NCBI GenBank assembly: GCA_018661775.1
Contig: JABJHO010000042.1
Span: 1 to 34,065, forward strand
Reading direction: 5' to 3'
Origin: Candidatus Magasanikiibacteriota bacterium
Lineage (GTDB): Bacteria; Patescibacteriota; Patescibacteriia; Magasanikbacterales; UBA922
DNA: 34,065 nt
Shown here piece by piece: positions 1,251 through 34,020 of the stretch. The position numbers and the translations under genes are program-made. A model generated the notes under the pieces. It worked only from the letters and a program-made list of their open reading frames with translations. It did no database searches and was not told where the DNA came from. Numbering within the stretch: the first letter of the stretch is position 1; each line of letters opens with the position of its first letter.

Positions 1251-4200
1251 ATGAACACGTTTTTTGCTAAACGAGATTACTTTTTGGCCATACCACTTGC
1301 GTGTTGTGTGTTTTTTACCATTGTTTTATGTGTGCTTGCTGTAGATGTGACGGTTACGGTAACGGTGCCCGCCATTTGTGGTAACGGTGCCATTGAAGGA
1401 GCAGAGGTGTGTGATGATGGAAACACGACAGCAGGAGACGGGTGCTCGGCTACATGTACTTCTGAATCCTCAAGCACTTCTAGCGGGAGCAGTTTTTCTA
1501 GTGCTCCACCACCGTCAGCAGTTGAGTCCACAGAAGAGAGCACAGAAACAGAAGAGGGTACAGAAACAGAAGAGAGCACAGAAACAGAAGAGGTGGTAAC
1601 AGAGGAACCCTTACCTGAAGAAGAAGAGGAGGAGGAAGAGGAGGAAGAGATTACAATATGTGGCGATGGTGTTGTACAAGAAACAGAGCAGTGTGATGAT
1701 GGTAATACAATTGCTGGCGATGGGTGTGATTTGGCCTGTGTAACAGAAATATGTGGAAATGGGTACTTGCAGGCTGGAGAAGGGTGTGATGATGGAAATG
1801 AGGATAACACAGATGCGTGTTTAGACGCATGTGTCGTCGCAACATGTGGTGATTATTATATACAAACAGGCGTTGAGCAGTGTGATGATGGTAATACAGT
1901 AGATAACGATGGGTGTTCTACCATGTGCCAAGAAGAGGTGTTGCCCCCTGGGTGTGGTGACGGCATTGTACAAGAAACAGAACAGTGTGATGACGGAAAC
2001 ACTATTGCCGGTGATGGGTGTGATTTGGCTTGTATAACAGAAGTATGTGGTAATGGGTATGTACAGGTTGGAGAAGGGTGTGATGACGGAAATGAGGATA
2101 ACACAGATGCGTGTTTAGACGCATGTGTTGTCGCAACATGTGGTGATTATTATATACAAACAGACGTTGAGCAGTGTGATGATGGTAATGTGGCAGATGG
2201 AGATGGGTGCTCTGCTTTATGTCAGGAAGAGGTCGCTGTTATTTGTGGCGATGGACTGCTCCAGGTTGAAGAAGAGTGTGATGATGGAAATTTGTTGAGC
2301 GGTGATGGGTGTAGTGATATGTGTGTATTTGAAATTTTTACTTTTTGTGGTGATGGTGTACCAGAAGGTGAAGAAATGTGTGATGACGGAAATAGTATAA
2401 ATGGTGATGGGTGTTCCGCAGCGTGCGAAATAGAAGAAGAAATACAGCCGGCATGCGGAGATGGTGTGTTGGGTGATGGAGAAATGTGTGATGATGGAAA
2501 CACGAGAAACAGAGACGGGTGTTCTGCAGCTTGTACAATAGAAGAAGAAATACAGCCAGCATGTGGAGATGGGTCATTTGACGCCGGAGAAGAGTGTGAT
2601 GATGGGAATATAATGAATGGAGATGGGTGTAGTTCGGCGTGTGTGTTTGAGATCCCTTCGATTTGTGGTGATGGTATTGTTGACGAAGGGGAGAGTTGTG
2701 ATGATGGGAATTTTGTAAACCAAGACGGATGTCTTGATACCTGTGCTTTTGCTGGGTGTGGTGATGGATTTATTTTTGCTGATATTGAGGAGTGTGATGA
2801 TGAAAATAGTGAAGATGGGGACGGGTGTTCTTCTTTCTGTATCAGTGAGATCATACCTTCGTGTGGTAATGATATTCTTGAAGCAGATGAGGTTTGTGAT
2901 GATGGAAATCGTTTTGATGGAGATGGGTGTTCTGCTTTATGCACTATTGAGTCAAAAAAATTAGCATTAGGAAACTTTATACTTCGTTTGGCAAATGGAG
3001 CAATTAGACCACAGGTAGATGATGAAAAAATATACACACTAACAGGGGATACGGTACAAATCTCGTTAGATAAAGAATTTTTTGATGAATATTCTGTACA
3101 ATCAATGGTTTTGCAGTATGTTGTTGGGGTAGATACCAAAAAATTTGTAGATCGAGGGATGTTAAGCTTTATTGATCCAGTGTATGCAGTAGAAGAGGGG
3201 TTACTACAAAAGCAACTAGGTTTTGTGCCACAAACACAGCGATTTTCTTCATCATTAGTGTTGGGTGAAGCTGGTATTCAGGATGTGGACATTGTTATTC
3301 GGTATAAGGACGGTGAAGTGGATCGTGTGCCGCTGCAGATTAATATAACACAACCTGGTACAATTATTTCTGATGATTCCAAAGAACCTTTGGTCGGTTC
3401 CACTGTAACTTTAATAGATGATCAGTCAAATGATGTGTGGCAGTCTGTTCATTTTGACCAAAATAATCCAACCCCCGTATCAAAAGACGGTACATATGGA
3501 TTTATAGTTCCTAATGGCGAATATATATTACGTGTTGAGAAAGAGGGATATAGAACACAAGAGTCATTTTCCTTTCGTGTTGAGAATAATATTGTGAATG
3601 AGGATGTGGTGTTAATGAAAAAGCTCCCAAAATTAATAGACTCGGTTGAGGATATTCTTGAGGAGGATATTTCTGCAGGAGAAAAAGTACAAAAGATTGC
3701 AGTTGTTTCTGCCACTAAGGCGGTTGAGGTTGCCAAGGTTGGTGTGCGGACTGTTGTTGAGGTCGCAAAAAAGATAGACGATGTAGCAGACGACCCGCTT
3801 GTTGAGGAAGTAACCGAAGAAGTAATAATCCCAACGACAGTTGCCGCGTCTGCAACCATTGTGCTGCCATCACTGTGGAGTATTATTATTCCATTGCTTC
3901 GCTTTTTGTTCCTTCAGCCATTACTCCTTTTGGGGTTGCGAAAAAGAAAAGAGTGGGGGGTTATTTATAATGCACTTACAAAGCTCCCAATTGATTTGGC
4001 GGTGGTGCGTATTGTTAATGCTGAAACAAAAAAAGTGGTACAATCACGCGTAACAGACTTAAAAGGAAGGTTTTTGTTTATTGTAAATCCTGGATCGTAT
4101 GTGATAGAGGTGACAAAACCAGGTTTTTCGTATCCATCAAGCATATTACAATCCGTAAAATCAGATGGTCGTTTTGCAGATATTTATCATAGTGAAACCA

Positions 4201-4730
4201 TAGAGGTAACACAAAAAGGTGTTGGTCTTACGCCAAATATACCGGTTGATCCGGTGGACGCAGAAAAAACACCAAAAAGAATTGTTTGGGAAAAACGTCT
4301 TCGAATTGTGCAGCATATTTTTGCGTCATCTGGTATTTATACAACAATGGTTGGGTTATATATTGCACCAACATTATGGCTTTGTGGATTTTTGGCCGTA
4401 CATATTGTGGTGTATTTGTTGTTCATCCATTTAATTCAACCAAAACAACCAAAAGGTTGGGGGATTGTATATGATAGCGAATCAGGAGAGCCTTTGGCAA
4501 AAGCAGTTGTTCGATTATTTAACAAACAATACGATAAACTGGTGGCAACATTTGTGACAGACAGAAAAGGTCGGTATGCATTTTTGGTAGGACCAAGCGT
4601 GTATTATCATATTTCTGAAAAGTCAGGATATAGGGAGTTAATTGGTCCGGATATTCGTATAAAAGAAAAAAAGGCCGAAGGGGGAATTATTAAAACAGAT
4701 GTACACTTAGAAAAAGATGGAGAAACATAA
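1251..4730 (+). CDS. Giant cysteine-rich repeat surface protein (Myxococcus-type repeats plus carboxypeptidase-regulatory-like domains)
   Basis: An 1159-residue protein. A signal segment covers about 1-30. The first cysteine repeat is at 42-70, followed by an acidic Ser/Thr/Glu linker (about 75-135) with STETEE-like units and an 11-Glu run. Thirteen more repeats fill about 137-567, giving 14 of the form CG(D/N)G....E.CDDGN...GDGCS..C, the DUF4215/Myxococcus cysteine-rich repeat; each should form internal disulfides outside the cell. Three carboxypeptidase-regulatory-like or SpaA-like beta domains follow (about 703-790, 902-960, 1068-1150), recognised by DG.Y.F.V..G.Y...V.K.GY. Hydrophobic segments near 869-897 and 1024-1063 lie between them, so the last domains may sit on either side of the membrane. 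It probably acts in adhesion or as cell-wall scaffold. No enzymatic motif is visible. Confidence 0.8.
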   Translation: MNTFFAKRDYFLAIPLACCVFFTIVLCVLAVDVTVTVTVPAICGNGAIEGAEVCDDGNTTAGDGCSATCTSESSSTSSGSSFSSAPPPSAVESTEESTETEEGTETEESTETEEVVTEEPLPEEEEEEEEEEEITICGDGVVQETEQCDDGNTIAGDGCDLACVTEICGNGYLQAGEGCDDGNEDNTDACLDACVVATCGDYYIQTGVEQCDDGNTVDNDGCSTMCQEEVLPPGCGDGIVQETEQCDDGNTIAGDGCDLACITEVCGNGYVQVGEGCDDGNEDNTDACLDACVVATCGDYYIQTDVEQCDDGNVADGDGCSALCQEEVAVICGDGLLQVEEECDDGNLLSGDGCSDMCVFEIFTFCGDGVPEGEEMCDDGNSINGDGCSAACEIEEEIQPACGDGVLGDGEMCDDGNTRNRDGCSAACTIEEEIQPACGDGSFDAGEECDDGNIMNGDGCSSACVFEIPSICGDGIVDEGESCDDGNFVNQDGCLDTCAFAGCGDGFIFADIEECDDENSEDGDGCSSFCISEIIPSCGNDILEADEVCDDGNRFDGDGCSALCTIESKKLALGNFILRLANGAIRPQVDDEKIYTLTGDTVQISLDKEFFDEYSVQSMVLQYVVGVDTKKFVDRGMLSFIDPVYAVEEGLLQKQLGFVPQTQRFSSSLVLGEAGIQDVDIVIRYKDGEVDRVPLQINITQPGTIISDDSKEPLVGSTVTLIDDQSNDVWQSVHFDQNNPTPVSKDGTYGFIVPNGEYILRVEKEGYRTQESFSFRVENNIVNEDVVLMKKLPKLIDSVEDILEEDISAGEKVQKIAVVSATKAVEVAKVGVRTVVEVAKKIDDVADDPLVEEVTEEVIIPTTVAASATIVLPSLWSIIIPLLRFLFLQPLLLLGLRKRKEWGVIYNALTKLPIDLAVVRIVNAETKKVVQSRVTDLKGRFLFIVNPGSYVIEVTKPGFSYPSSILQSVKSDGRFADIYHSETIEVTQKGVGLTPNIPVDPVDAEKTPKRIVWEKRLRIVQHIFASSGIYTTMVGLYIAPTLWLCGFLAVHIVVYLLFIHLIQPKQPKGWGIVYDSESGEPLAKAVVRLFNKQYDKLVATFVTDRKGRYAFLVGPSVYYHISEKSGYRELIGPDIRIKEKKAEGGIIKTDVHLEKDGET
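1659..2246 (+). repeat. In-gene tandem duplication of a 294-bp (98-residue) block
   Basis: Positions 1659-1952 and 1953-2246 carry the same three successive cysteine repeats in the same order. Long stretches are nearly identical in DNA; for example the region around 1801-1890 matches that around 2095-2184 with only scattered changes. The neighbouring repeats of the same protein differ much more in DNA sequence, so this block was duplicated recently. Confidence 0.85.
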
Positions 4731-13621: not shown

Positions 13622-14377
13622 ATGAGTGATATTCGTACTATATTGACCTCGCTAGGGTTACTTGAAAGTGAGGTAAAAACATATCTTGCGGCGCTTGGGC
13701 TTGGGCCAAGCACGGTGATTGCACTGTCAAAGGCAACAAAACTGTCTCGACAGGCTATTTATGATGCCTTGAGCGCGCTTGTTGAGCACGGTATTATGTC
13801 GAGTGTTCTAAAAGGCAAAAAACGGCATTATTTGGCAGAGCATCCAGATACATTGCTTGCCTATGCAAAAAAACGCAAAAGTGATTTGAGTGTACAAGTC
13901 AAAAATCTAAAACGGTTGGTACCAAAATTAACACTACAAATGGGCGGCGACAGACCGGTAGTAAGAATGTTAGAAGGAAAAGAAGGGGCAAAACTCCTTT
14001 CTGAAATGCTTGAACATCAAAAACGTGGTACACACATGTATGAGGTGTCGGATTTGGAGGCGGTAAATGAGGTGTTTACGGAAGAAGAATTGATGTTGTA
14101 CAGAAATGCATCAAAGAAGAAGGGGCTTACTTATGATGCAATTCTTCGAGGTGAACCAAAGACAGACAGTAAAGACGGAACTCAAAAATATATTATACCC
14201 GAGGATAAAATAGAATCATTTAATACCAATATTTCTATTGGTGAAAGAGAGATAAACATGGTGACATTGTCTGGAAAAATGTACACAATTCAAATAGAAA
14301 ACAAAGAGATTCGAGATGCCATGAAACTTCTCTTTGAGTTGGCAGTAAAAGGGCTCAAGAAACAAAAACATTCGTAA
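13622..14377 (+). CDS. TrmB-like transcriptional regulator 1
   Basis: A 251-residue protein. Residues 1-75 are a TrmB-type winged helix: LGLLESEVKTYLAALGLGPSTV, then the recognition helix region LSRQAIYDALSALVEHGIM and the wing GKKRHYLAEHP. A short coiled coil (about 80-105) and a C-terminal ligand or dimer domain follow. TrmB-family proteins in archaea bind sugars, but no sugar transport gene is near, and the C-terminal half lacks an obvious sugar-binding motif. The next gene is a paralogue 18 nt downstream in the same frame. The target genes are unknown; autoregulation is possible. Confidence 0.8.
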   Translation: MSDIRTILTSLGLLESEVKTYLAALGLGPSTVIALSKATKLSRQAIYDALSALVEHGIMSSVLKGKKRHYLAEHPDTLLAYAKKRKSDLSVQVKNLKRLVPKLTLQMGGDRPVVRMLEGKEGAKLLSEMLEHQKRGTHMYEVSDLEAVNEVFTEEELMLYRNASKKKGLTYDAILRGEPKTDSKDGTQKYIIPEDKIESFNTNISIGEREINMVTLSGKMYTIQIENKEIRDAMKLLFELAVKGLKKQKHS

Positions 14378-14395
14378 TTTCTATACTATAATTAT

Positions 14396-15139
14396 ATGAC
14401 AGATATTAAAAAAACACTCGGTGCCCTTGGGCTCCTTGAGAGTGAAATAAAAACCTATCTCGCTGCGCTGCATCTTGGGCCAAGTACAGTTATTACTCTT
14501 GCAAAAGCAACGCATCTTTCGCGTCAGGCTATTTATGATGCACTTGGTGTGCTTACAGACAGAGGTATCATGTCTTCTGTTATGCAAGGCAAAAAACGAC
14601 TGTATACTTCGGAGCATCCAGAAATGTTATTGACGCATGCCAAAGAAAAACAAGCAGATTTGGACAAGCAAATTGAAAGCCTCAAAGAGATGATTCCAAA
14701 ACTAGAATTACAAGTAAGTGGAGAACGTCCGGTGGTAAAAATGTTAGAAGGAAAAGAAGGGGTAAAAATGATGGCGGAGATTGTTGAAGATTTACCTTTT
14801 GGGGAAGAGTTATACGAGCTGGTTGACACTAAAGTGCTATTCAGTATACTGAATCCTGTAGATTTAGAGGATTATAGGGAAGCATTAAAAAAGAAGAAGA
14901 TTGAGGTGACGGCAATAGCCCTTGGAGACCCAGTAACGGAAAAGCCAGAAAACGTAAAATGCAGAATACTTCTTGATGAGAAAAAGCACGATAGTTTTGC
15001 TGCTAATCTTATTGTGGCGGGTAATAAGGTGTTTGCTGTATCGTTTACAGGAAAAATGTATGCAGTGTATATTGAAAATGAAGACATGGCAAATACAATA
15101 AAAATGCTATTTAAGCTTGCTGAGAATGCTAAAATATAA
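14396..15139 (+). CDS. TrmB-like transcriptional regulator 2 (tandem paralogue)
   Basis: A 247-residue protein with the same plan as its neighbour: winged helix (LGLLESEIKTYLAALHLGPS, LSRQAIYDALGVL, wing QGKKRLYTSEHP), coiled coil, and a C-terminal domain containing VVKMLEGKEGVKMM and ending in an SFTGKMYAVYIEN strand, as in copy 1. The N-terminal halves are close and the C-terminal halves have diverged, suggesting different effectors or partners. TATACT (14382-14387) lies 8 nt before the ATG, so an internal leaderless transcript is possible, although no good -35 is seen. Heterodimers with copy 1 are plausible. Confidence 0.8.
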   Translation: MTDIKKTLGALGLLESEIKTYLAALHLGPSTVITLAKATHLSRQAIYDALGVLTDRGIMSSVMQGKKRLYTSEHPEMLLTHAKEKQADLDKQIESLKEMIPKLELQVSGERPVVKMLEGKEGVKMMAEIVEDLPFGEELYELVDTKVLFSILNPVDLEDYREALKKKKIEVTAIALGDPVTEKPENVKCRILLDEKKHDSFAANLIVAGNKVFAVSFTGKMYAVYIENEDMANTIKMLFKLAENAKI

Positions 15140-29268: not shown

Positions 29269-31290
29269 CTAATTCCCACAAATTTCTTGCAATTTCTTAA
29301 ATTCTTCATCAGTAATTGGTTGCTCATTTTCTTTGCCTATTAGTGAGACAGTTGCAGGTGTTGTGTCGCTACTGTGCTCAAAGCCACCAACAAGTTCTGC
29401 TGGCAAATCTCTACTCATCATGCGTTTAATATATTTTCCAGATTTACCAATGAGCCATTTTGATTCTCCTTCTTCGTCTAAGTCTTTTTGGCTCAGGTCA
29501 AAATCTGGATATTCTTTTAGTAGGCGATGAATGGTGTCATATATTGTTTTGTCGGTATCGGGTATACTCCCTGACTGTTTTGCTATGTAATATAAATTGT
29601 CCAGTAACGCTCTACCGTGTGGTTTTTTTGCAAAACGTCGTGCAAGCACCAGGATGTATGGTCCTAGATTAATACTTTTGTTCATTTCGGGTATTGTAAA
29701 ACTCAATGCCTTGCCTTCTGCTACAATCTTACATAGCCGGTAGAGACCCTGTGGTCTGTAGAGCTTAATTGTTTTTTTGTCTACGGTTATTCTAAATGTT
29801 TGGTTACCAAATAATTCTTGTGGCTGCTCGCCTCCGCTTACAGTGCCAGTTTGTATTGCCTGCTTAGCTGATTCTGAGTAAATAATACCACTGCTTCCTA
29901 TTAATACTTCATTCATGTCCACGTCTCTTGTGCTTAGAATATCACTTAAAAAAGATTCGACAGAGGATGTAATTTCTTGCCTATCTACTCCTGTTGCGTC
30001 TGCGCCAAGAACACCTCTTGCCGCTTCTTCTTTTTTAGTAAGTGTGCCATCGAGAGCTTCTTCGGCGGTGTGACCTACAATAATATCTACATCATTGAGT
30101 GGGAATTCTGCAAGAATGGTAGAGACAGGTGCTTGAAATGCGAGTTTGGCTAGAATTCTGGCCGAACCCCCTTTGTGCAGCATGTGTTCTTTAGCTGGGA
30201 CTTTGATTTCCACGCTCAGGTTGTGTGGCTCACCCAAATGTACGGAAATATTTGTTTTAACGTACGCACTTTCTTCTGGGTTCGGTTCTGTGTTTTCAAT
30301 AGTAAGTGGTATGGTATTTCCTTCTTTGTCTGTGTATATGCCGTCTTTTGTATATTCTTTTGTTTGTGTAAGAATTTCATCAAAACCCAGTGTTAGCGGT
30401 GTTTCGTGTTTTTGTGCTTCCACAAAATGTGCATCTCTGTATACATCTATGCTTTTTGCTATTTCAAATAATATATTTTTTGCAAGTAGTGGGCGATTTT
30501 TTTGTAAAAGTTCTGGAGTAATAGATTCAGTTTGTTTTTTTACGATTTCTAGCTCTATATCAAGAATTTCCTTAAAAAGTTCCTCAGTGAGTTCCGGAAG
30601 ATGCTGTCTCCTTTTTTCAAGCTCTTCGTCTGAGTAGTGTTTTTCAAGTATTCTGTCTCGGGCATTATGGAGAATGAAGTAAAAGAACTGCTTGATATTT
30701 GGGTGGATGTGTATAGCACTGTTCCAAGATTCTTCATCATCACCATTTTTTTGGGACTCTTCTAGGGTGTTGGGTGTTTGGTCTATTGTGGTAAAAAGCT
30801 TGGTAATATGCTCTTGCCACAGGGCACTATCTTCTGGCAGCTCTCTTAGGTATGACTCAATAATCTTTAGTTGGTTACCAATAGTAAGTGCTTCTTTGGG
30901 GTTTGTTTTCCCTCTGGTGTCTATTGTTGTGTCTGTGGGTAGTTGAGCAAAAGCATGCGCAGCTTCGTTTGCAGCAACGACAAGATATGTGCCTATCTCA
31001 GAAATACCGACATCAATTACACTCTCAATGTATTGCCACTCTTTTTCGGTAATTTCTTCACCTGTCACACCTAATTTTCTCAATTCATTGCGCATGCGTA
31101 AAATATCTTGCTCAATGTCTGATATCTTAAGAAGCGTTGTTTGTGTTATTTCTTGGTCACCCTCTGTGTGTAATGCCTGAGAAAGGTCGGCATGTAGTTT
31201 TTCCGCTGTTTTTAAATGCTCCTGGAGTTTGGCTATTTTTTCTGCATCTGTTTCACGTGTGTTGTAAATGGTTTCCTGTTTTGGAATCAT
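29269..31290 (-). CDS. Large unrecognised protein with a nucleotidyltransferase-like core
   Basis: A 673-residue soluble protein without signal or membrane segments. Residues 14-80 are a likely coiled coil; 80-290 are mostly helical; 345-535 look like a diverged pol-beta nucleotidyltransferase head of the CCA-adding/poly(A) polymerase type: GGSAR (374-378), NDVDIIVG with Asp400 and Asp402, RDVDMNEVLI (455-464) at the place of the RRDFTINA motif, and RPQGLYRLCKIVAEGKALSFTI (from 512) at the place of the P.R.LR..RFA..LGF.I motif. The distance from GG to DxD is longer than in CCA enzymes. The C-terminal 130 residues are unassigned. The -10 TATAAT (31302-31307) is 11 nt from the ATG. The activity is inference; it could also be an inactive relative. 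Confidence 0.6.
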   Translation of the reverse strand: MIPKQETIYNTRETDAEKIAKLQEHLKTAEKLHADLSQALHTEGDQEITQTTLLKISDIEQDILRMRNELRKLGVTGEEITEKEWQYIESVIDVGISEIGTYLVVAANEAAHAFAQLPTDTTIDTRGKTNPKEALTIGNQLKIIESYLRELPEDSALWQEHITKLFTTIDQTPNTLEESQKNGDDEESWNSAIHIHPNIKQFFYFILHNARDRILEKHYSDEELEKRRQHLPELTEELFKEILDIELEIVKKQTESITPELLQKNRPLLAKNILFEIAKSIDVYRDAHFVEAQKHETPLTLGFDEILTQTKEYTKDGIYTDKEGNTIPLTIENTEPNPEESAYVKTNISVHLGEPHNLSVEIKVPAKEHMLHKGGSARILAKLAFQAPVSTILAEFPLNDVDIIVGHTAEEALDGTLTKKEEAARGVLGADATGVDRQEITSSVESFLSDILSTRDVDMNEVLIGSSGIIYSESAKQAIQTGTVSGGEQPQELFGNQTFRITVDKKTIKLYRPQGLYRLCKIVAEGKALSFTIPEMNKSINLGPYILVLARRFAKKPHGRALLDNLYYIAKQSGSIPDTDKTIYDTIHRLLKEYPDFDLSQKDLDEEGESKWLIGKSGKYIKRMMSRDLPAELVGGFEHSSDTTPATVSLIGKENEQPITDEEFKKLQEICGN

Positions 31291-31356: not shown

Positions 31357-32124
31357 TTATGTTTCAAGGTATTCTTCTATTGTTTCAAGTAGTTTATCTG
31401 CCACCTGATCTTTTGTGGTAAAGAGCAGCGAAAGAAGTGTGTCTGATTGTGTCTCTAGCCCATGTTCCATTGCGCAGTGTGACATTTCTATCAAAAGATA
31501 TTGGGCTGCTCGCATTGCAGTTATTAGTTTATCTTGAACTAGGGCACCATACCTTACACAGTCGTCGCTTGCTTGGTGGTAACCCCTGCGCCAAAGTTTT
31601 TCTGAAAGTTGTGTATATATATGACTATTTGTAAAACCTTCAGTATCTTGCCGGTTACTAAGATGAAACCTTTTGTACACAGGAGACAGTTCCATTTCGG
31701 TTATACGCCGTATAAGCCTGTACTGTTCTTGCCTTGTGTGTTTTGCGGAATTATCCAAAACAAGAAACCCTTTTGCCTCTTTTGCCACATGTGGGCCATG
31801 AAATGCATACCTCTGGTTATGGGGATGCTCCGTGTTTACCAGGTCCTGCACATCTAAGAGTTTTTGTAGTATATTGGTCAGATTCTCTGTCTCATGTACC
31901 ATGTTTGCAAAAAAAAGGAATGTCTCTGCTATTGCATGCGCTCCTGAACGGGCGTAATTACAACCTATGTTGGCAGAACTTCTACAGACTTCTAGTCTCG
32001 TATACTCTGGACAGACCATTTTTTGTGTTATGTTGGAATAGTTTACACTTTCCCCACAGACACTAACTTCCGTGTATCTAATTTTCTCTAGTATTTGTTG
32101 ACTTTGTTGATTACTCCACTTCAC
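31357..32124 (-). CDS. Orphan protein, cysteine- and histidine-containing, helical
   Basis: A 255-residue protein, probably cytosolic (no signal or membrane helix) and mostly helical. It has Cys at about 23, 38, 47 and 55 in the N-terminal quarter and two more near 193 and 217, but no CxxC pairs and no motif I recognise. The start is a GTG at 32124 with AAGGAAAG upstream. It has its own promoter at 32166-32194 and its own terminator, so it is transcribed alone. The next gene downstream is the nucleotidyltransferase-like protein. Function unknown. Confidence 0.65.
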   Translation of the reverse strand: MKWSNQQSQQILEKIRYTEVSVCGESVNYSNITQKMVCPEYTRLEVCRSSANIGCNYARSGAHAIAETFLFFANMVHETENLTNILQKLLDVQDLVNTEHPHNQRYAFHGPHVAKEAKGFLVLDNSAKHTRQEQYRLIRRITEMELSPVYKRFHLSNRQDTEGFTNSHIYTQLSEKLWRRGYHQASDDCVRYGALVQDKLITAMRAAQYLLIEMSHCAMEHGLETQSDTLLSLLFTTKDQVADKLLETIEEYLET

Positions 32125-32165: not shown

Positions 32166-32194
32166 GTTATACATTATTTTTGGTATTTTGTCAA
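32166..32194 (-). promoter_or_regulatory. Promoter of the 255-residue orphan
   Basis: On the minus strand: TTGACA (32189-32194), 17 bp, TATAAC (32166-32171). It lies between the uppS stop and the orphan start. Confidence 0.75.
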
Positions 32195-33008: not shown

Positions 33009-33091
33009 GCCGCGGTGGTGGAATGGTAGACACGAGGGACTTAAAATCCCTTGAAGGAAACTTCGTGCGGGTTCGACTCCCGCCCGCGGCA
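33009..33091 (+). tRNA. tRNA-Leu (anticodon TAA)
   Basis: Acceptor GCCGCGG/CCGCGGC, anticodon arm AGGGA-CTTAAAA-TCCCT giving TAA, long variable arm with GAAGGAAACTTC, T arm GCGGG-TTCGACT-CCCGC, discriminator A. CCA is not encoded. It stands alone on the plus strand beside a recombinase gene. Confidence 0.95.
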
Positions 33092-33098
33092 CAAAAAA

Positions 33099-33120
33099 AA
33101 ACCACAATTTGTGGTTTTTT
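33099..33120 (+). terminator. Terminator of tRNA-Leu
   Basis: AAACCACA (33099-33106), ATT loop, TGTGGTTT (33110-33117), then T-run. It starts 7 nt after the discriminator base. Confidence 0.85.
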
Positions 33121-33169
33121 ACGTTACTTTCATTTAAGAGGTGGATACAAAATGCTTAGGTTTGTTTTA

Positions 33170-33985
33170 CTACCATAACGGACTCTTAATATTTTTCAGC
33201 CTTGGGTTTGTGACTTTTGTGTATAATTGTGTAGTTCTAATATTTGCATGTCCAAGTAATTCTTGTACGTATCGTACGTCTGTCCCATTTTCTAGCAAAT
33301 GCGTGGCAAAAGAATGTCTGAGTGAATGAAACGTGGCAGGTTTGTTCACTTTTGCTTTTTCCAAGCTTTTGCGGAACATTTTTTGAAGGGATGTTGTTGT
33401 AAGACTGTCTCCGCGATTGGAAATAAAAACAACATCATCTGCATTTTTACCAGCGATTATGTTTCGTAAATCATCTTGCAACATCTTTGGCAACACGCTT
33501 ATTCTATCTTTTTTGCCCTTTGCTCCTTTAATATGCACGACAAGTTCATCAATATCTAAGTCTAGCACCCTTAGTTTTACCACTTCACTGACTCTCATGC
33601 CGCAAGCATATCCAAGCGAAATCATGAGTTTGTATTTAGCATTATTTGTTGCATCAATAATCTTTCCAATTTCTGCTCGCGACAATACTATCGGTAGCTT
33701 TTTATTTCTTTTTGCAAATTTCAAGTCAATTTTTTGTGGATTTTTTAATACTTCAGTATATAAAAACTTTACCGCATTGAGTGCAAGATTTATTGTCTGC
33801 GGAGATTGCTTACGCTTGTGTTTATCTAACAAAAAATCTTCAATCGCTTCTTGCTTATTCTTTAGACCAGCTTTCTTAGAAAAAATTATATACTCTTTTA
33901 TATATAGCAAATACGCCTTACACGTTTTAGGGGAGTAATTTCTTAACAGCAATACTCGCTGAGTTTTATGTAAAATATCCTCCAT
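33170..33985 (-). CDS. Tyrosine recombinase (XerC/XerD-like)
   Basis: A 271-residue protein from the ATG at 33985. Residues 1-90 are a SAM-like core-binding domain (NYSPKTCKAYLLYIKEYIIF). The catalytic domain has Arg131 (GMRVSEVVKL), Lys156 (GAKGKKDR), His220 and Arg223 (HSLRHSFATHLL), His246 (LLGHANI) and the nucleophile Tyr255 (TQLYTKV), so it should be active. A longer frame to 34018 exists, but a promoter (TTGTGT, 17 bp, TATGCT) ends 6 nt before 33985, giving a leaderless start there. It could be the chromosome dimer-resolving Xer of this genome, or an integrase: it sits next to the 3' end of tRNA-Leu. Confidence 0.9.
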   Translation of the reverse strand: MEDILHKTQRVLLLRNYSPKTCKAYLLYIKEYIIFSKKAGLKNKQEAIEDFLLDKHKRKQSPQTINLALNAVKFLYTEVLKNPQKIDLKFAKRNKKLPIVLSRAEIGKIIDATNNAKYKLMISLGYACGMRVSEVVKLRVLDLDIDELVVHIKGAKGKKDRISVLPKMLQDDLRNIIAGKNADDVVFISNRGDSLTTTSLQKMFRKSLEKAKVNKPATFHSLRHSFATHLLENGTDVRYVQELLGHANIRTTQLYTKVTNPRLKNIKSPLW

Positions 33986-33991
33986 AAACAA

Positions 33992-34020
33992 AGCATAACA
34001 AAAGTTTGCATAACACACAA
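33992..34020 (-). promoter_or_regulatory. Promoter of the tyrosine recombinase gene, leaderless
   Basis: On the minus strand: TTGTGT (34015-34020), 17 bp, TATGCT (33992-33997), then 6 nt to the ATG at 33985. The remaining 45 bases at the right edge show nothing else. Confidence 0.55.

Follow-up and report, generated by a model that had tools for sequence, protein, structure and literature searches.

Background

Class II CCA-adding enzymes, bacterial poly(A) polymerases and the FAM46 proteins are united in one branch of nucleotidyltransferases (PMC11646218). In the class II enzymes the base is read by the EDxxR signature of motif D, and a strictly conserved aspartate of motif C assists the movement of the domains (PMC8563995). 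The FAM46/TENT5 non-canonical poly(A) polymerases have a head and a helical neck without the body and leg domains, and detection of the CCA-related poly(A) polymerases is limited to the Beta-, Gamma- and Deltaproteobacteria (PMC11646218).

In this study I analysed a window of 34,065 nucleotides, contig JABJHO010000042.1 of a Candidatus Magasanikiibacteriota bacterium, which carries on its minus strand an open reading frame (29269..31290) for a 673-residue nucleotidyltransferase-like protein, here called P0001. With the class II CCA-adding enzymes (3h39; 1miv from Bacillus stearothermophilus; PF01743) it shares the head and neck fold, the order of the GG..R, DxD and RD...N motifs and an arginine in the neck helix. 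However, identity is only about 10-16%, the EDxxR of motif D and the aspartate of motif C are not conserved by alignment, PF12627 and HD domains are undetected, a long helical extension precedes the core, and the genome has a separate cca gene. The structures 3aql and 3aqm, which I take to be bacterial poly(A) polymerase of the PcnB type, belong to the same branch of the fold (VIA Z about 8), although P0001 has no PF01743 match. FAM46/TENT5 proteins likewise combine a head with a helical neck (VIA Z 7.1-7.7), but they are eukaryotic, no sequence link to them was found, and their best Z of 7.7 compares with 9.8 for a CCA enzyme. The toxin-antitoxin nucleotidyltransferases MenT (DUF1814) and MNT share the broad superfamily with P0001, whereas the match in fold and profile is weak or missing.

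Results and Discussion

A sequence-only reading of this DNA had picked out in P0001 the series GGSAR (residues 374-378), NDVDIIVG (399-406, with D400 and D402) and RDVDMNEV (455-462), with RPQGLYRLCKIV...ALSF (YRLCKIV...ALSF) downstream, as the trace of a diverged nucleotidyltransferase of the class II CCA/poly(A) polymerase type. The whole series is present. In composition-preserving shuffles of P0001 its order recurred 6 times in 200,000 in a loose form and 0 times in 200,000 in a stricter one, counts that are a rough guide only, as the motif patterns were defined post hoc from P0001 itself. The decisive test is conservation among homologues together with structure rather than shuffling, and both support the proposed assignment. 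Neither of the two outcomes that the sequence-only reading had named as fatal to it, a model lacking the pol-beta fold or aspartates that vary among homologues, came about.

Searches of Pfam, NCBIfam, PHROGs, PADLOC and the PDB sequences with P0001 returned no meaningful match, no link from sequence to a known family reaches curated significance, and no description of the family was found in the part of the literature covered. A search with the single protein did retrieve strong relatives in the Patescibacteria, at E-values of 1e-36 to 1e-43, and profile searches added more. Eight long relatives are now known besides P0001: within the class in the genomes G301, G279 and G391 (two copies) and, confirmed by profile, G111, and otherwise in one uncultured Patescibacteria record and in G710 and G493, from other parts of the phylum. 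With 5 of the 381 sampled genomes of the class, the long family is rare and sparse. The single-protein search found no relative in the same genus, the family (46 genomes) or the order (86 genomes), nor in one scan of genome contigs or in phages, plasmids and viral contigs, and phages and viral contigs again gave nothing when searched with relatives or profiles. The weak matches L039, L041 and L091 were discarded.

A second, short family of open frames of about 290-430 residues carries the motifs KGGAAR, PRDIDI, GVE, TRDxTxNE and GPKMLAKxLR, and its profile joins that of the long family with an hhalign probability of 98.4 (E 8e-15). It occurs in about 8 of the 381 class genomes, a lower bound because the long-family profile was the query. 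The genome under study has such a short paralogue of its own (L089:991-2124, G000:C27), which overlaps an lspA-like gene. Members of both families all stay below the Pfam cut-offs; PolyA_pol (PF01743) matches none of the nine long proteins, and the sole link to it comes from a single short one (E 0.13).

Among the nine long proteins, the invariant residues include K373, G374, G375, R378, K382, E395, P397, D400, D402, R455, D456 and N460, followed by A475, G495, R518, G526, K527, G543, L547, V548 and R551, and by F597, W612 and P645. KGGSAR (residues 373-378; 30157..30174, minus strand), the GG..R motif, keeps its lysine, both glycines and its arginine in all nine. Both aspartates of the catalytic DxD, D400-V-D402 (30085..30093, minus), are invariant there and in the short family too. 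The third acidic residue, D436 (29983..29985, minus), lies on a neighbouring strand, 435-439 of the core model, and is D or E in 9/9. RDVDMN (455-460; 29911..29928, minus) is the counterpart of the RRDFTxN of motif B; RDxxxN is present in all nine, and the joint profile of both families aligns it to RRDFTMN of 1miv, the first arginine being lost. The joint alignment of 18 long and short sequences leaves G374, R378, D400, D402, R455, D456 and N460 as invariant columns. The long family thus has the features of the pol-beta-type superfamily, namely GG/GS followed by DxD (9/9), a third acid and the predicted fold.

Two further relatives, in the genomes G820 and G850 (L093:1360-2637 and L094:1039-2355), have TGA codons in the matched frame. 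Read with code 25, which was my choice and makes the result suggestive only, they become frames of 426 and 439 residues that keep GG..R and DxD without a complete motif B. As motif B is incomplete or the third acid missing in them, some family members may be inactive. These two relatives, together with the lost base-reading motif, would fit a catalytically dead nucleotidyltransferase fold that survives as a regulator binding RNA or nucleotides. I regard this as improbable for P0001, since DxD, GG..R, RD...N and the third acid are kept in 9/9 main members across distant taxa.

The full-length model has a mean pLDDT of 57 and is poor outside the core, with values mostly of 70-90 for residues 330-480. 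As residues 1-295 are poorly modelled, a Foldseek search with it gave only chance helix matches, and the core (residues 296-600; 29491..30405, minus strand) was therefore folded alone. With 18 sequences, AlphaFold2 modelled it at a pLDDT of 91.9 and a pTM of 0.89, as a pol-beta-type fold, in line with the sequence-only reading, and its best PDB matches are CCA enzymes. Ranks 1-19 of the Foldseek search against the PDB are all entries for CCA-type tRNA nucleotidyltransferases or bacterial poly(A) polymerases (best E 4e-4, probability 1.00). VIA-align superposes 193 residues of the core on the ATP-bound CCA-adding enzyme 3h39 at 4.2 A with a Z of 9.8; ranks 1-33 are all CCA enzymes, bacterial poly(A) polymerase types or FAM46, and outside this clade Z is at most 4.6. 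Entries with the head and neck fold of the class II CCA/poly(A) polymerase branch take ranks 1-19 in Foldseek and 1-23 in VIA-align. Only modest TM-scores (0.3-0.4) were reached, which fits a remote relative whose domains have shifted. Among viral structures the core matches giant-virus and phage proteins, several of which are named tRNA nucleotidyltransferase or poly(A) polymerase; numerous uncharacterised giant-virus proteins also match the fold, and some of these carry ankyrin or BTB domains.

At the level of sequence the same enzymes come up. Against all PDB sequences, the joint profile ranks the CCA-adding enzyme 1miv first (E 0.063), with RD...N and the neck helix aligned, and the short-family profile alone matches only the 1miv chain (E 0.72), whereas the long-family profile alone gives just two unrelated chance matches. 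Compared by hhalign with 20 CCA proteins from relatives, the long and short families reach 34 and 27, respectively, against a maximum of 23 for 40 column-shuffled decoys. These profile links of both families to CCA enzymes are suggestive and no proof.

That P0001 is recognised by no profile library could mean that it is not a nucleotidyltransferase at all and that its motifs are coincidental. This reading is close to refuted, as the motif residues are invariant columns of a real family and a confident model retrieves CCA enzymes first across the PDB. In fold and superfamily P0001 is almost certainly a real, distant nucleotidyltransferase of the branch formed by class II CCA enzymes, bacterial poly(A) polymerases and FAM46.

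The part of this branch that reads the base looks different in P0001. The neck helix R518-LCKIVA-EGK527 (29710..29739, minus strand) is by alignment the counterpart of the motif D helix and lacks EDxxR; in the profile alignment R518 falls on an arginine three positions past the R of that signature. The positions equivalent to EDxxR, 511, 512 and 515, are occupied in the nine long members by Y/I/V/L/P, R/K/N/A and G/A, and never by E, D and R, respectively, an equivalence that comes from extending the joint-profile match to 1miv without gaps and not from a residue-by-residue superposition. By this alignment motif D is absent in all nine long proteins. The aspartate of motif C also seems not to be kept, IIYSES standing in place of IIDPFGG. 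PF12627 and HD have no match in P0001, whose residues 601-673 are poorly modelled, whereas both domains are present in the genome's own cca.

The sequence-only reading had noted that none of the seven tRNAs in the window encodes CCA, and indeed 0/7 have CCA at or just past the 3' end. Its argument that the organism needs a nucleotidyltransferase nevertheless has no bearing on the P0001 gene. An ordinary cca gene, for which that reading had advised a search, was found on a different contig; it encodes PolyA_pol, PolyA_pol_RNAbd and HD domains in a frame that reaches the contig end, and such a gene is present in 20/20 lineage genomes checked, this genome included. P0001 is probably not the genome's CCA enzyme. 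That CCA-adding enzymes are its best structural matches could still point to a second enzyme for adding or repairing CCA on tRNAs, or to a split CC- or A-adding enzyme. This is very unlikely, given the ordinary cca gene, the absence of EDxxR by alignment, the undetected RNA-binding and HD domains, and the absence of P0001 relatives from all other searched genomes of the family and order.

As P0001 has no PF01743 match and, by alignment, no motif D, I do not file it as a CCA-adding enzyme. With EDxxR missing and a tRNA-gripping body and tail undetected, it probably does not carry out CCA addition, and the apparent loss of motif D favours the half of the earlier proposal that had allowed for another activity. 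Outside the core, the N-terminal helical extension (residues 1-295; 30406..31290, minus strand) is modelled with low confidence and is shorter in most relatives. This extension and the 73 residues at the C-terminus are family-specific, and a known RNA-binding domain was sought in P0001 and none was found.

The gene lies in a block of two, formed with an orphan open reading frame of 255 residues (31357..32124, minus strand), with uppS on one side and, on the other, a terminator hairpin after P0001 (29224..29263, minus) followed by nrdB. In the same-genus sister genome G001, uppS adjoins nrdB with one terminator hairpin of the same type between them and the block is absent; uppS likewise adjoins nrdB in G002, of the same family. 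The simplest reading is that the block was gained in the lineage of the window. No anomaly in base composition was found, the GC and GC3 of P0001 resembling those of neighbouring genes. In G021 a different open reading frame (199 residues, L034:5105-5701) lies between nrdB and uppS, so the junction may acquire genes repeatedly. An XerC-like recombinase gene beside a tRNA-Leu (33009-34018) is located at the contig end, near the inserted block. Elsewhere in the window lie two tandem, similar TrmB-like regulator genes, named by eye (13622-15139), and a large surface-type protein with many CGDG...CDDGN repeats (1251-4730).

A near-consensus, promoter-like TTGACA-17-TATAAC (32166..32194, minus strand), read from the sequence, precedes the 255-residue frame at the start of the block; the promoter scan does not list it because it demands a final T. 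The 255-residue frame ends in a hairpin with a T run, which lies between the two block genes. P0001 starts without an evident ribosome-binding site and with TATAAT directly 5' of its ATG, and its translation may be leaderless. The 255-residue frame was rejected as a conserved partner: in 363 class genomes it has one weak match (E 0.0096), and the neighbours of P0001's relatives vary. Inspection by eye beside the relatives showed no conserved neighbour, and no partner of that kind points to RNA. Named by eye, a metallo-hydrolase-like gene paired with a kinase-like one, an ADP-ribosylglycohydrolase-like gene, a tyrS-like gene, and RuvB together with PH-domain genes were seen once each.

A patchy, sparse occurrence and an inserted block of two genes would also suit a toxin-like or regulatory nucleotidyltransferase, which would stop growth by modifying tRNA ends or a protein with an NMP, with the 255-residue frame as possible partner or antitoxin. 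MenT toxins, which are nucleotidyltransferases, add pyrimidines to tRNA CCA ends (PMC11375011), and the MNT antitoxin, which AMPylates HEPN, stands lower in the Foldseek list (E 0.28). However, PADLOC has no match, the 255-residue frame is nearly without relatives and the other members have varying neighbours, a hairpin with a T run separates the two genes, and the fold of P0001 is that of the CCA/poly(A) polymerase branch. I consider a toxin-like or regulatory role possible, though rather unlikely.

Conclusions

My best guess, at a probability of about 0.55, is that P0001 is a catalytically competent nucleotidyltransferase that does not add CCA and probably acts on RNA 3' ends. Homology, predicted fold and conserved catalytic residues were computed here; from them I infer the activity, the RNA acceptor and the nucleotide. 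That P0001 is an active enzyme is likely; that its acceptor is an RNA 3' end is about an even call. D400, D402 and D436 would coordinate two metal ions, and GG..R378, R455 and other invariant basic residues would hold the triphosphate and sugar, roles suggested by those of the family. P0001 would then transfer the NMP of an NTP to its acceptor in a template-independent reaction, and this acceptor, most likely the RNA 3' end, would probably be bound by the N-terminal helices and the C-terminal segment.

A wider and more tentative proposal is that the Patescibacteria possess a further, unrecognised bacterial branch of CCA enzymes and poly(A) polymerases, with long and short members, which has lost the base-reading motif and tails RNA, or modifies tRNA or another molecule, in a mode not known elsewhere among bacteria. 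The Patescibacteria have small genomes with many unannotated genes, and P0001, unseen by Pfam and NCBIfam, now has a place in a wider family and catalytic residues that can be named. As CCA-related poly(A) polymerases have so far been detected only in some Proteobacteria (PMC11646218), an RNA-tailing relative in the Patescibacteria would, if true, extend this group, and it would offer a natural test of how a CCA fold chooses its nucleotide without EDxxR.
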